NCBI RefSeq assembly: GCF_013391805.1
Contig: NZ_CP058364.1
Coordinates: forward strand, 3,601,501-3,665,500
Direction: 5' to 3'
DNA: 64,000 bases
Source: Galbibacter sp. BG1
Lineage (GTDB): Bacteria > Bacteroidota > Bacteroidia > Flavobacteriales > Flavobacteriaceae
Part shown: positions 54,935 to 61,087 of the stretch, one piece after another
How positions within the stretch are numbered: position 1 is the first letter of the stretch
Layout of the letters: every line of letters begins with the position of its first letter
Made by a program: the position numbers and the translations under genes
The notes under the pieces: model-generated
What the model was told of the DNA's origin: nothing
The model's input: the letters and a program-made list of their open reading frames with translations, nothing else
The model's database searches: none

Positions 54935-57900
54935 TCAAGTATATCTAGCAATTACGTCCGTTTCACTTATAATAAGTCTTTCGTAAGTTCCAGCTCCATC
55001 TATCAATCCCGAAAGGCCACTTATAGAATAATAACCCGCGCTACCATCTCCAATTACGCTAATATTATCTCTAATATTCTGATTTATAATATCCAAGGAT
55101 ATATTATTTAGATCTGATTCTTGAATTAATTTCCCATCGCTATCAAGGGGTCTCAATTTATAAGCCACTTTATTCGATGCATTGGTTGTATTTCCTCCAA
55201 CTAATCGAGCAAAGTTATCGCCATCTATTTCCACAATTTCAACTACAATATCTACATGGCTTGAACCACTTGAGGGTGATATTCTTCCTTGAGCATCTAT
55301 TGTATAAGAGGATCCTGATCTGCCATTTACAATTAAATCACCAAGCTGTACAGCTTCGTTAGAAGGATCATGTAGAACCATTGTATTGCCAGATAATTGC
55401 ATACTTTGCGAGATATATCTTATATGGTTTCCGCTAGGCTCAAATATTCCAAGGGTTTCCAAACAAGTCTTTGCACGTCTAAGAAGTATTCTCTTGTTAG
55501 TATTATTTAATGAATCGTAATTTTCAATTGAATGACCGTTATAAGAAGCGTTATCAGGAAAATGACTTACTACAGCATGCAAATATGCCCTCATGAATAA
55601 ATATGATATGAAAGCTGCACTCCATGCAACCTGATCAGGAACAGTTTGTCTAGCAGTAGATTCTGCTCCAGAAACCGTTCTAAACGGCAACCAATATTCA
55701 GTAACTTTTGCTATTCCATCGTTATTATTATCTAATAATCCACCGGTCCACCATGTATTAAATTCATCATGTGCCACCTGTGTTGCGTAATCAACAACTG
55801 TATCAGCCGGAATATCCCAAGGAGTAGAACTAGTGTTTCCTTGCCCTTCAGATTGTTGTATCAATCGATCGCTAAAGCGTACTATTTGTAAAAACAGATT
55901 TCCGGAATTATCGGTGACCATTTGTTCAAACATTTCTATAAATGCATCGAAATATTCGAATTGCTCCTGTCCATTTTGCGGGTTCACAAATTTAAAAGTT
56001 ACGTCATTGGGATTATTTAAATCGCCTTCCATCCCAAAAAGTAACAAAGCGTGAGGGGAAAAACCGCTAGAGCTATCGGCATCTATGGTTACCCAAAGTG
56101 GACCATAGGTACTCAACCAATCGTAATATTGTCGTAAAGTATAGCTTGCAGGCGGCATAGCTTCCAATCCTAAAGCATGTATAAATTGATTTTTCTCAGA
56201 GGCAAACAAACCTGTTTCGTTATTAAACATATCAACATAGTAGTTCTCATTTGCTGGGTTTAAGTTATTACCAGCAATCGCCAGTATTTCTGGTATCGTA
56301 TTACTGCTACGCAGTTTCCAGTTCATAAGCATGGTTGCCACAGTTGCCCAGCAGCCCATTGTAGGCTGTGTCATGCCTTCAACTTGATAATTTACATTGA
56401 TGGGCTGCGACCCCTCTGAAGGTCTTACGTTTATAGACTCATGAGTACCATCGGCATCGGTGCGCTGTGCTTGTACCGTTTGCCCACGGTTAATTGCTTC
56501 TGAAGCTGTTTGGGCTAACGATGGTCTGTTTCGTTCTCTTTCAAACTGTGCCGTTTCCCTAACACTCTCTCCCCCGTCTATTTGTTGTTGTAGGTGTTGA
56601 CGTGTAAGGTTTTGGGCGTCTTCTTCAGTAATATTCCCCGCCTGTCTAGCCTGAGAAATTCCTTCGGCAATGTTTTGTGAGTTCTGCGTGTTGTGCTGTT
56701 GGGTAGCTAAACTCTTGGACATTTCGGCAAACGCTTTCGCATTTTCTTGATTGGATAAGTACGTTCTTATTGCATTATCTTGATTTTTAGCCAAACCTGT
56801 AATGTCGTTAAATGCACCTGGCTTTCCTAGCAATTCTGATAACTGAGATAGTCCAGCTCCTGGTGCTGGCGCATCGGGTGCATTTTGGATGTTTACCATA
56901 GGACTTGCAAAATCTTTATATTCTGGCCTGTATTCTGTAATACTGGGCGTAGGCGTTACAATTGGCGCAATAGAGGTTGGCTCTTCGGTTCTAAACTTAT
57001 CCCAATCTTGTGAAGAGTTTTCCTTTACCATTTCGCAAGCATCACAAGAACCTTGAATAGCTTCCATAAATACGCCTCGGGTTGGTACACTTAATCTATA
57101 TGGAGGAACTGGTGTAAGGGGTTTGTAATAATCGAATAAGCTTGTTTCTAAGAAAACATTATCTCCAATTTCTTCCAACATATTGTCCCTACCTACCCGA
57201 TAACCATCTGCTACTGGAAAAACAAGTGAATTCCCCGTAATGGTAATTAATTCGTTCTTTACCACAGAGGCCAAGCTTCGCATCACCGATTTCTGTCCTG
57301 TCGAAGTATAGGTTTGAATATTGAAACCATCCAATAACATATAGCGTCGGTCAGCATCTAAATTTTTCCATAAAACTTTATTATAGTGCTCTAGATGGCT
57401 ATTTAAATGCTCTATAAGTTCATTTACAATATATCTGTCTTCTTTTCTAGGATCCGTTTCATCCCTTGCTGTTAGCGGAATATATAGCTCTACCCCATTA
57501 GAATCCAATAAATCATCGGTGGGATTTCCTCTAAACAACCGCCCTTCAAAATGTTCCGTTGTGTAATTCAAACGAACTCTTTCTACTATAAGCAGGGTAT
57601 TTCCACCATCCAATTTTTTCACAGCATTATTGTTACACTTCATTTTTATATATAACGGCAGCTGTCGTCTGGTTTTGGTGGAATGTCCATTAACTTTAAT
57701 GGTCATTCTGCGGTTTCCTCCGGTGTATCTAGTCGTACGGGTAAGATCTGCTCCCAACTCGTCGATGTATATACTGTTAACTATTTTATCGTATACTTCG
57801 GGCAAAATGTCGTTATTGAAAATGCTATCCCATTCGGCAATCAACCTTCCGGCAAAATAATAATCAAGAAAATCGTAAACACTTGTATATCCCAAAATTT

Positions 57901-60900
57901 CCGAGTAGGCTGTCCACTGCTCTTTATCTACATGGCCGTCTTCGAAAAACTCTTCTCCATTGTAACCACCACTTACGGTAATATCAAATATAGGAAGGCT
58001 TATGGGTCTCGGCTGGAAAGATTTTATTCGTATACATCTAGAAGGGGGTACCGTTTGATAGTTTGCATCCAATACCATAAACTGATCAAAGATGGCAGCC
58101 TTCACCAAGATTTCTTCCTCTCGTGTCTTATATTTTACATTTGTTCCTGGAACTCCAGTTGCAAGAAGAGAAAGTCCGCCAGTGACGGCTCCTAAAAACG
58201 AATCAAAGATTCCTTTTTTAGCGGTTTCAAAATAATCTACATCCTTATGTGTTATAGTTTTTGTAATTATGGGTAGCGATTTTATCCTATCATATTTGCT
58301 TTTTGGTCTTCTTAATTCAATTCTAAGTGTAAAATCACCTTTAATATCGGTAATTCTCCCATCTGCATAAGTTGTCCCTTCTGCAGGGTAATCTACCCTG
58401 GTATAATCTGTTTTAATCCGTTTGTTGGCATCAAAAGCTTTAAGAAGTGGATGACTTTGTCTTCTTCGTAAAAACGAAAGCCAAGACCGCCTTAAATATG
58501 TATTGGAAGGAATAGGCAATAAATTAGTTGCTAATATGTCTTTCCATTTATGAATGTTTTCCGTGGAAAAATTTGTCATCAACAAAGGTACAAACACACA
58601 TTCTTCTACGTGTGACAGCTCTTGGTAAATGGCATAATGACGCAGTACCTCAAAATACATCATGGTAAGGGAATGGCAATGGTTATGGTTGGCAATAGTT
58701 TCTGCAGTAACTCCATAATCTTGGTCCTGTGTAACAGTGGTTACTACAGAGGCGTTTAATTCGCGATAACTTTCTGCATTTTGCATTAGCGATTGGCGTA
58801 ATTTCTCCCCAAAAAACTGGGTGATATTTCTCGAACTGTTTTGCGAAGCTGATGAATTGGAATTGGAGAAACCTCCTGCTACTCCCAAGGAGGCACCAAA
58901 GCCACCGTAAGAGCCACTTGCGCCTAGTCCAGCAGACATTCCAGAAGTATGCGCCTTGCTTCTACCACTCATGTTTTCATCAAGTCCGCCACTCAACTGG
59001 TCGGTAATAAAACGGTCACTTATCAATTGAGAGGAAAGTTCCTCTCCTTGGGAGATATCTTGAGCTTCTGCCCCTGCAAAAGAATGGGAGGATTCGAAAA
59101 CTACAATTTGCTTTTTCTGTCCGGGTGCTAAAGGCAGGGAGTATACCAAATCCCCGAGAGAATACCCATCTGCTTTAAAAACCGATTTGTAATGAAGAAT
59201 ATGACCAGTGGCAACGGTTACCGCTTGATACATCGATATGTTTTCTTTTGCGTCGGGAGCATCTTCCCAACGAATGGGATTGTTAAGGTCTACTTCCTTG
59301 CGTTGTATTTTTTTATTCCCTCCAACCAAATTATATTCAACTCTCAAACCTTTTCCATCCCTTACATTCTTCTTTTCTAGAACATAATTAGAAACATCTG
59401 GGTCTGATATTCTAACAATCGCATTGTAACGGTATTCGCGTAAGGTTCTATTGGGTGTGGATAAGTTAAGGCAAGCTCCACCTATATCCTGAGTATATTC
59501 ATCAGATTCTATTAAATCTGCTTGGTCGGGAAGTCGCTTGGCTTTTGTTTTGGAGTGGCATTCACAATCATCGTGTTGGTCACCCTCTTCTGGAATGGAA
59601 ACTTCTTCTTCTACTAACAGAAGGTAAATAAAATCGTCTGAAACAGTTTCGTTCTTGTCATCTGCATTAATTACGAGGTCTACCGGACTATTCGGCATAA
59701 TGGAAACCATTGCTTGGGCCTCAACATAATCGCCATATGGGTAATCCATTGAAAAATTACCAGATTTATCGGTAGTTCCCGAAGTTACAATTCTATAAAT
59801 TTCATCCCCTTCTTTTTTTGCTTGTACGATAACAGTGAGTTCGTTGAGATTATATTTTTTACCCTTTTGCAAAACTTTCCCGCGGAGTCTTTTTGTGCTC
59901 TTTGGTTTTCCGGTCTGTGGGTCTACCTCAAGACCATCGGTTGGATATTTTCGTAGACTTATGGATAGATCCTGTAAGGTTTCATCATCCCTATCATAAT
60001 TTTCTTCCCATAAAACAGCTCCATCAAAACCTTTTACCCTTACGGTTACATCTCCGGAAATATTATTAACTAATATGGGTTTATTCTTGGTGAAGTCAAA
60101 ATCAATTGAATTATCGGCAATGGTTTCCTCTTCTTTAGACCAATTGTATTTTAAAATTTTGGAGTCACCGTTGGATTGTTGATACTCTACTGACAAATCG
60201 TAAGCATCCAAATCGGCTTGAGAAAGTTCGTCTTCGCTTTCAATTTCCAAATTCCCGGCAATACCTATCGCTTCAATAGGCGGGATTTCTAAGGGAAAAT
60301 CAAACAGTTTATTAAAATTATCTTTTAAATAGTCAAAGAATTCTTCGTTCACGGTGTATTCCGTCCTCTTTAAAAAATCCATTAACTGTGTATAACTCAC
60401 GGTAAAATCTGCAGTAGAAAGTTTTGGATGTTCACCGTTTAAATCGACTAAAATTTGAATAAAATTAAGTACTAACTCATCAGAAATACTTCTATCAGGA
60501 TAAATCACATCAAATATATATTTGAAAAGCTCGTAAACTTCTTTGTTGATTAGAAATACTCTTTTATTGTATTGTTCAGCTAAATTCTTCAATCCTTTTT
60601 CGTTTAAAGGATCTTTAGCGTCTGAAAGAATGTCGCCATAAGTGCCTATAAACTTGGCATATTCTTGCTGGTAGTACTTCCTGTCATAGTCGGATGATAT
60701 GGGAGATTTTAAATAATAAATCCCTTCAAACTCCTTTGTATTTATAATTTGGTTGTATTCATCTCTTGTGGTAACTGTAAACTTGAATGAATAATCGTTT
60801 ATATCTACACCTTCCCTATTCAGAATTTCTATAAAATGAAATAAAAAGAATCCATAAATATCATTTACGTCATCTCCAACAAGCGCATCCAAAGGTAAAT

Positions 60901-61087
60901 TTAGTTTATAGGTATTATCATCTAAATCTTGACTGGTATTAAACTGCTCGTAACCATTGACATATCTAAAAACTTGATTTCTTTCTATTTTAAAAGAAAA
61001 TTTTGGCATTTTTGCCGAAATAGACACACTATCTATTTCATGTTGACGATCGTCCCCTGCGGAAAAACTAAACTGAATGGAAGCCAT
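54935..61087 (-). CDS. Giant protein with papain-like protease and DUF2272 domains
   Basis: 2050 residues, no signal peptide or transmembrane helix, no single named family for the whole. Visible parts: an N-terminal mixed domain (1-280); a carboxypeptidase-regulatory-like beta domain near 395-475 (TTDKSGNFSMDYPYGDYVEA); CECH at 508-511; a Gly/Ser-rich stretch 713-752; the motif NHNHCHSLTMMYFEVLRHYA at 800-819; a Pro-rich then Gln/Asn-rich linker about 1365-1565. A papain-like protease of AvrRpt2/C39 type spans about 1568-1740, with Q1574, C1579 in QPTMGCWAT, H1679 and N1702. DUF2272, a peptidoglycan-hydrolase-like fold, spans about 1760-1990 (AWSAAFISYLFMRAY; SSHVDIVVEIVE). The gene is solitary. 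A toxin, effector or envelope-processing role is inference. Confidence 0.8.
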   Translation of the reverse strand: MASIQFSFSAGDDRQHEIDSVSISAKMPKFSFKIERNQVFRYVNGYEQFNTSQDLDDNTYKLNLPLDALVGDDVNDIYGFFLFHFIEILNREGVDINDYSFKFTVTTRDEYNQIINTKEFEGIYYLKSPISSDYDRKYYQQEYAKFIGTYGDILSDAKDPLNEKGLKNLAEQYNKRVFLINKEVYELFKYIFDVIYPDRSISDELVLNFIQILVDLNGEHPKLSTADFTVSYTQLMDFLKRTEYTVNEEFFDYLKDNFNKLFDFPLEIPPIEAIGIAGNLEIESEDELSQADLDAYDLSVEYQQSNGDSKILKYNWSKEEETIADNSIDFDFTKNKPILVNNISGDVTVRVKGFDGAVLWEENYDRDDETLQDLSISLRKYPTDGLEVDPQTGKPKSTKRLRGKVLQKGKKYNLNELTVIVQAKKEGDEIYRIVTSGTTDKSGNFSMDYPYGDYVEAQAMVSIMPNSPVDLVINADDKNETVSDDFIYLLLVEEEVSIPEEGDQHDDCECHSKTKAKRLPDQADLIESDEYTQDIGGACLNLSTPNRTLREYRYNAIVRISDPDVSNYVLEKKNVRDGKGLRVEYNLVGGNKKIQRKEVDLNNPIRWEDAPDAKENISMYQAVTVATGHILHYKSVFKADGYSLGDLVYSLPLAPGQKKQIVVFESSHSFAGAEAQDISQGEELSSQLISDRFITDQLSGGLDENMSGRSKAHTSGMSAGLGASGSYGGFGASLGVAGGFSNSNSSASQNSSRNITQFFGEKLRQSLMQNAESYRELNASVVTTVTQDQDYGVTAETIANHNHCHSLTMMYFEVLRHYAIYQELSHVEECVFVPLLMTNFSTENIHKWKDILATNLLPIPSNTYLRRSWLSFLRRRQSHPLLKAFDANKRIKTDYTRVDYPAEGTTYADGRITDIKGDFTLRIELRRPKSKYDRIKSLPIITKTITHKDVDYFETAKKGIFDSFLGAVTGGLSLLATGVPGTNVKYKTREEEILVKAAIFDQFMVLDANYQTVPPSRCIRIKSFQPRPISLPIFDITVSGGYNGEEFFEDGHVDKEQWTAYSEILGYTSVYDFLDYYFAGRLIAEWDSIFNNDILPEVYDKIVNSIYIDELGADLTRTTRYTGGNRRMTIKVNGHSTKTRRQLPLYIKMKCNNNAVKKLDGGNTLLIVERVRLNYTTEHFEGRLFRGNPTDDLLDSNGVELYIPLTARDETDPRKEDRYIVNELIEHLNSHLEHYNKVLWKNLDADRRYMLLDGFNIQTYTSTGQKSVMRSLASVVKNELITITGNSLVFPVADGYRVGRDNMLEEIGDNVFLETSLFDYYKPLTPVPPYRLSVPTRGVFMEAIQGSCDACEMVKENSSQDWDKFRTEEPTSIAPIVTPTPSITEYRPEYKDFASPMVNIQNAPDAPAPGAGLSQLSELLGKPGAFNDITGLAKNQDNAIRTYLSNQENAKAFAEMSKSLATQQHNTQNSQNIAEGISQARQAGNITEEDAQNLTRQHLQQQIDGGESVRETAQFERERNRPSLAQTASEAINRGQTVQAQRTDADGTHESINVRPSEGSQPINVNYQVEGMTQPTMGCWATVATMLMNWKLRSSNTIPEILAIAGNNLNPANENYYVDMFNNETGLFASEKNQFIHALGLEAMPPASYTLRQYYDWLSTYGPLWVTIDADSSSGFSPHALLLFGMEGDLNNPNDVTFKFVNPQNGQEQFEYFDAFIEMFEQMVTDNSGNLFLQIVRFSDRLIQQSEGQGNTSSTPWDIPADTVVDYATQVAHDEFNTWWTGGLLDNNNDGIAKVTEYWLPFRTVSGAESTARQTVPDQVAWSAAFISYLFMRAYLHAVVSHFPDNASYNGHSIENYDSLNNTNKRILLRRAKTCLETLGIFEPSGNHIRYISQSMQLSGNTMVLHDPSNEAVQLGDLIVNGRSGSSYTIDAQGRISPSSGSSHVDIVVEIVEIDGDNFARLVGGNTTNASNKVAYKLRPLDSDGKLIQESDLNNISLDIINQNIRDNISVIGDGSAGYYSISGLSGLIDGAGTYERLIISETDVIARYT

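Follow-up and report, generated by a model that had tools for sequence, protein, structure and literature searches.

What is the role of a 2050-residue bacterial protein that ends in a papain-like peptidase and a DUF2272 domain yet begins without an export signal? The gene that raises this question lies on the reverse strand (54935..61087) of a 64,000-nucleotide stretch of the Galbibacter sp. BG1 genome (NZ_CP058364.1), here called the window, and all features of the protein given below lie on that strand. An earlier note on this DNA had described a solitary open reading frame (ORF) of this length, and the frame is indeed open throughout, with no internal stop. We found that the window protein is a member of an apparently unnamed, seemingly undescribed and widely scattered family in which two parts are exchanged on a conserved body. 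Our preferred reading, at a probability of roughly 0.4, is that the window protein is a polymorphic, toxin-like lysin with a putative membrane-insertion module.

A conserved body with two exchanged parts

Of 170 pattern stretches in a profile scan of genome contigs, 133 proved to be relatives; 79 loci were retained from these and, with further loci added, make up a family of 102 ORFs in 95 loci. These encode 97 distinct proteins, because four loci were fetched twice and loci L095 and L096 share one protein. The analysis thus places about 97 mostly giant proteins in a single family whose shared architecture can be tested; family libraries, as far as tested, recognise them only in the tails and a few side domains. 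No published description of the family core was found in the open-access literature outside preprints and subscription papers, covered chiefly through titles and abstract openings.

The C-terminal tails are diverse. After removal of duplicates, cut rows and three short tails from the 102 ORFs, 92 tails were scanned, where one tail may match several families. Peptidase_C70 was found in 29 tails, DUF2272 in eight, Amidase_2 in seven, Peptidase_C39_2 in five and Beta-lactamase2 in three; M23, OmpA and PG_binding_1 were found twice each, and HH_signal, GH25, M15_4, Muramidase, Amidase_6, M15_3 and Big_1 once each, while some tails had no match. Peptidases and wall-type enzymes are among these 15 Pfam families and no nuclease is. 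Apart from C70, most of the named families are peptidoglycan-related. An HExxH-type motif occurs in 11 of 95 tails. As a separate observation, the Hedgehog amino-terminal signalling domain matches one of the 92 tails with an E-value of 2.7e-40.

The tails have been exchanged on a conserved body, as is characteristic of polymorphic toxins. On a core tree of 86 of the 102 ORFs, built with the cassette omitted, the 29 payload states ('none or short' counting as one state) cannot be explained by fewer than 43 changes, compared with 28 if no state were re-used; this is a quick tree in which 20 of 80 inner branches are open, with long-branch warnings and no shuffle control, and the payload groups were built by phmmer and may therefore split distant homologues. 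One payload group, P02, sits on distant cores from Aquimarina, Corallococcus, Paenibacillus, Paractinoplanes and a Saprospiraceae bin. The junctions are sharp: identity between the window protein and L027 falls from 81% in residues 1401–1500 to 18% in 1601–1700, and that with L026 from 80% in residues 1601–1700 to 20% in 1801–1900. In Segetibacter (L043, 4342-16528), two tandem genes encode proteins that do not differ up to about residue 1585, and their DNA shares 99.9% identity across 4812 bases; one continues into a C70 tail and the other into DUF2272, although it is possible that this tandem is an assembly fault instead of true copies.

The second exchanged part is a central, PLAT-like cassette at about residues 901–1210 (57458..58387). 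Between the window protein and a congener, the cassette is 33% identical and both flanks are 89% identical, whereas a cassette at 83–90% identity is common to four relatives. In Streptomyces clavuligerus a Tectonin domain occupies the same position. The best 31 VIA rows for the cassette are all lipoxygenase and lipase chains, in stretches that we take to be their PLAT domains. These results firmly establish that the family is modular, with two parts that are exchanged while the body is conserved. Both this two-part exchange and the conserved, possibly membrane-inserting core had been overlooked in the earlier note.

A candidate membrane hairpin in the conserved core

The conserved core comprises about residues 640–890 (module A, delimited as a feature at 626–890, 58418..59212) and 1215–1480 (module B, 56648..57445). 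Module A has long predicted strands around a Gly/Ser/Ala-rich segment at residues 703–755 (58823..58981) and contains the motif NHNHCHSL at residues 800–807 (58667..58690), which had been noticed before and in which N800, N802 and H805 are invariant in a 76-row alignment. The core profile matched no PDB sequence up to an E-value of 1. Scans of 13 cores returned one Tectonin match and one weak DUF match in Pfam and one weak match in NCBIfam, and the Pfam scans made showed no aerolysin or other pore-former family. The core is thus left without a convincing known match.

In a predicted model of residues 540–1560 (76 rows, mean pLDDT 70.9), long strands lie at about residues 626–680 and 777–834, with confidence only near 620–660 and 800–839. 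In a Foldseek search of the core against the PDB, 48 of the 50 rows listed are pore-forming toxins or translocases by title, including PA-type proteins, CDTb, Ib, aerolysin, lysenin, epsilon toxin and NetF. The core is like these β-pore-forming proteins in that long predicted strands flank a candidate amphipathic hairpin rich in Gly/Ser, and they dominate the listed rows; it differs from them in the missing sequence match, the weak structural scores and the payload fused to the same chain. Two points weigh against our reading here. Model confidence is low over about residues 670–790 (blocks of 36–50), which includes the strand pair 703–754, and among 160 Foldseek matches just one has an E-value below 0.001 (5.3e-4), and TM-scores are low. 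Because of these scores, we treat the likeness to pore-formers as a lead.

The Gly/Ser-rich composition of residues 703–755 had already been recognised, and this part of the earlier description stands; the segment had been called a hinge, and its periodicity points instead to a candidate amphipathic β-hairpin. With local shuffles, and with the 48 rows (of 76) that an 80% filter left, we found that hydrophobicity alternates with a β period, with z-scores of 3.6 at 160°, 3.2 at 170° and 2.3 at 180°, while the value at 100° is not raised (0.6). These z-scores, like those given below for the short family, are inflated by common descent and give a direction, not a probability. None of four neighbouring segments shows a β period in local shuffles, including residues 640–660. 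A first test with a whole-region shuffle had given negative z-scores for the hairpin at all angles and a β z-score of about 10 at residues 626–655; since such a shuffle spreads the hydrophobic block, the local shuffle was used instead.

Further material came from a congener (G006), in which a 568-residue ORF (L115:1192-2895, forward strand) sits in the syntenic place of the giant gene, with the pseudouridine synthase on one side and the DEAD-box helicase on the other; in genome G005 the same interval is occupied by other genes. The 568-residue ORF has a short family of its own: 7 genomes out of 247 in the class sample match, and in G300 it is the long-family protein that does so. Module A aligns over 222 columns, hairpin and N-x-N motif among them, with a profile built from seven short proteins (hhalign probability 95.5, E-value 1.6e-8 for the pair), and it also aligns with the single short sequence (87.7, 3.4e-6). 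The hairpin of the short family carries a β signal as well, with z-scores of 3.3 at 180°, 3.0 at 170° and 1.8 at 160° from seven rows, and three other tested segments carry none. The short proteins share the motifs PGEKTTI, NxNxSR and ALLGQGEALDC, and their profile returned four weak, unrelated rows from the PDB sequences. We put insertion of the core into membranes, by a β-hairpin or a helical variant, at slightly better than even odds.

These data allow two other views of the segment to be weighed. In the first, the protein is a multidomain lysin freed by cell lysis that forms no pore: its core would be an extracellular scaffold or adhesin, residues 703–755 a flexible linker, and the tails would digest neighbours or prey. 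The Ig-like and transthyretin-like domains of the N-terminus, the lack of an export signal in the window protein, the largely peptidoglycan-related kinds of the tail families other than C70, and the low model confidence of the hairpin are all consistent with it. However, a plain linker should have neither a β periodicity in two distant families nor such conserved flanks, and we consider this view unlikely, at about one chance in four. In the second, the hairpin would be an α-helical glycine-zipper membrane hairpin, the protein otherwise acting as a toxin-like lysin. Many family members have a Gly-rich hydrophobic tip in this hairpin, and the flanking segments lack a β period; yet the periodicity of residues 703–755 peaks at 160–170° and is not raised at 100°, and that of the short family lies at 170–180°, which makes a helical hairpin improbable.

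The payload of the window protein

Module B is followed by a linker at residues 1481–1562 (56402..56647) that contains QQIDGGE, and a similar linker precedes different payloads elsewhere in the family, for example in both tandem copies of Segetibacter. The first payload domain is a papain-like Peptidase_C70 at residues 1563–1718 (55934..56401), matched by Pfam with an E-value of 9.5e-21 and 74.6 bits against a curated cut-off of 19. The papain-type residues Q1574, C1579, H1679 and N1702 named in the earlier note are at these positions. Among the 29 C70-type tails, the catalytic Cys is present in 29, the His in 28 and the Asp/Asn in 28, while the Gln column, which lies at the edge of that alignment, is filled in only seven of the 29 rows. 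Because Cys, His and Asp/Asn are conserved across these tails, the C70 payload is probably active, as judged from its residues.

The second payload domain, DUF2272, spans about residues 1815–1992 (55112..55645), with the best Pfam stretch at 1882–1992 (E-value 1.9e-11, 44.6 bits against a curated cut-off of 27), in agreement with the earlier assignment. DUF2272 is described as a papain-like domain of the serine type that may be linked to peptidoglycan amidases (PMC10318531). The window protein has the motifs WSAAF at residue 1822 and SSHVD at residue 1942; the former is, by its motif, a candidate for the serine that replaces the papain cysteine. Both payload domains match known families, Peptidase_C70 (AvrRpt2) and DUF2272, above their cut-offs, but they make up only the replaceable tail of the window protein. 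Beyond them, a Pfam scan of the whole protein gave two weak rows up to an E-value of 1, and NCBIfam and PHROGs scans gave weak rows only.

Export, neighbourhood and proposed mode of action

Because a miscalled start could conceal a signal peptide, as the earlier note had allowed, the start was checked. Its codon region reads ATGGCTTCC, the frame upstream of the called start stays open for five codons only, and close relatives have MAS[IVL]Q at the called start or just behind it; for these reasons, the start is sound. By hydropathy and this start check, used here in place of a dedicated predictor, the N-terminus does not have the character of a signal peptide, so that the earlier statement to this effect is upheld and the window protein lacks the secretion signal or trafficking domain typical of polymorphic toxins. 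In the family, the called N-terminus is hydrophobic in 5 of 97 uncut ORFs, and in at least two of these (L026, L036) it precedes an internal MAS[IV]Q start.

As had been stated, the gene is solitary. The next gene on the same strand, 65 bases on, encodes a DEAD-box helicase, and on the other side lies a divergent pseudouridine synthase gene (both assigned by eye); neither neighbour is an immunity gene. Among 1066 neighbouring ORFs of at least 100 residues from 89 loci, there was no conserved immunity gene or export partner, although short or diverse ones would escape this comparison. The widest recurring neighbour groups cover 9, 8, 6 and 6 loci and, by eye, belong to widespread kinds of gene, of SDR, kinase/regulator, sigma-factor and ABC type; the second was inspected in full and the others by three members each.

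We propose the following mode of action. Lacking an export signal, the protein would remain inside its producer without harm until lysis or another route released it. The PLAT-like cassette would bind the target surface, and its exchange would alter or escape recognition. The hairpin carried by the core of modules A and B would insert into the target membrane, and the C70 cysteine peptidase and the DUF2272 papain-like hydrolase would attack the target's protein or peptidoglycan. An effector-like or lysis-released factor, as the earlier note had suggested, fits the missing signal peptide, the solitary gene and the exchangeable lytic tails. Since most of the payloads with a name are peptidases or wall-type enzymes, a role in conflict with other cells is likely. 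Should the core insert into membranes, the family would deliver interchangeable lytic enzymes in a secretion-independent way, two of its parts being exchanged independently; should it not, the family would still be a class of polymorphic lysins for which we found no earlier description. A wider proposal, which we put forward tentatively and with more doubt than belief, is a superfamily of self-delivering, pore-former-like polymorphic toxins that combine a β-hairpin module, an exchangeable surface-binding cassette and an exchangeable payload in one chain, without a secretion machine, signal peptide or immunity gene.

The missing signal peptide would also suit an intracellular self-killing protein in phage defence, in which infection leads the core to damage the cell's own membrane and the payload its own cytosol or wall. 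Its patchy distribution (3 of 60 related genomes, its own included) and the related but different gene that a congener carries at this locus are in line with such a role. On the other hand, there was no PADLOC match up to an E-value of 0.1, and surface-binding-type cassettes (PLAT-like, tectonin) and wall hydrolases better suit an outside target; we regard self-killing as quite improbable. Loading into a contractile injection machine (an extracellular contractile injection system or a type VI secretion system), as had also been suggested, is very improbable: the protein is large, unexported and equipped with effector-like enzymes, and a C70 protein is described as a type III effector (PMC10318531), but in the host genome, a single contig that is 100% complete, neither Phage_sheath_1 (found in 3 of 14 control genomes) nor VipB (1 of 14) gave a match, and no conserved neighbours were found, Pvc16_N and TssD being left uncounted as void because they matched neither the host nor any control.

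The family resembles polymorphic toxin systems (Zhang et al. 2012, PMC3482391) in its conserved body, swapped C-terminal domains, tandem copies with different tails and patchy distribution. It differs in that a secretion signal is missing from the window protein and an immunity gene from the locus, a second exchanged cassette lies inside the core and no nuclease is among the tail families. The TANFOR polymorphic toxins of Bacteroidetes are likewise large Bacteroidota proteins with variable C-terminal toxins; most of them carry a signal peptide, and their genes adjoin type IX secretion system substrates and immunity genes (PMC7073777). In contrast, nothing relevant matched the window protein in NCBIfam (two weak and irrelevant rows, from a release that may or may not include the TANFOR domain model, TIGR02542), and the present family extends beyond Bacteroidota.

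Distribution and N-terminal features

Relatives are rare close to the host, but the core is found far beyond it. In a class sample, 10 of 395 genomes match, the host included, two of them (G143 and G380) in the C70 part only, and a same-genus genome (G004) carries a relative at 424 kb. By record title, 30 loci are from Bacteroidota, 25 from Pseudomonadota, 7 from Actinomycetota and 5 from Myxococcota, with one or two each from eight other phyla and 18 unassigned. This amounts to at least six phyla by isolate records and twelve by label when metagenome bins are included, several rare phyla resting solely on such bins. The bins L095, labelled Nitrospira, and L096, labelled Mesorhizobium, share 99.4% identity across 21 kb, which indicates mis-binning and makes bins unsafe for phylum labels; related tandem members are present in L094, a Bryobacterales bin. 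A phage origin was considered and set aside: none of 25 pattern stretches in viral contigs encodes a relative, the one matching phage record is an unverified faecal scaffold, PHROGs gave nothing useful, and a viral fold library had no match at an E-value of 0.001 or below.

The N-terminal part begins with β and α/β domains at residues 1–390 (59918..61087), as seen in a predicted model of residues 1–660 (mean pLDDT 81), with Ig-like matches at about residues 272–370. The peptidase-regulatory-like β domain reported earlier could be placed at residues 399–496 (59600..59893), where it is transthyretin/carboxypeptidase-regulatory-like. A weak DUF4255 match of the N-terminus (E-value 0.033) was judged to be due to chance. 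Among relatives, HHH_3 (helix-hairpin-helix) matches 10 of 67 N-terminal regions (alignment A4). The window protein also has a CxC at residues 508–510 and a CxxC at 1348–1351; of these residues, C508, C510 and C1348 hardly vary across the alignments and could serve in metal binding or disulfide formation.

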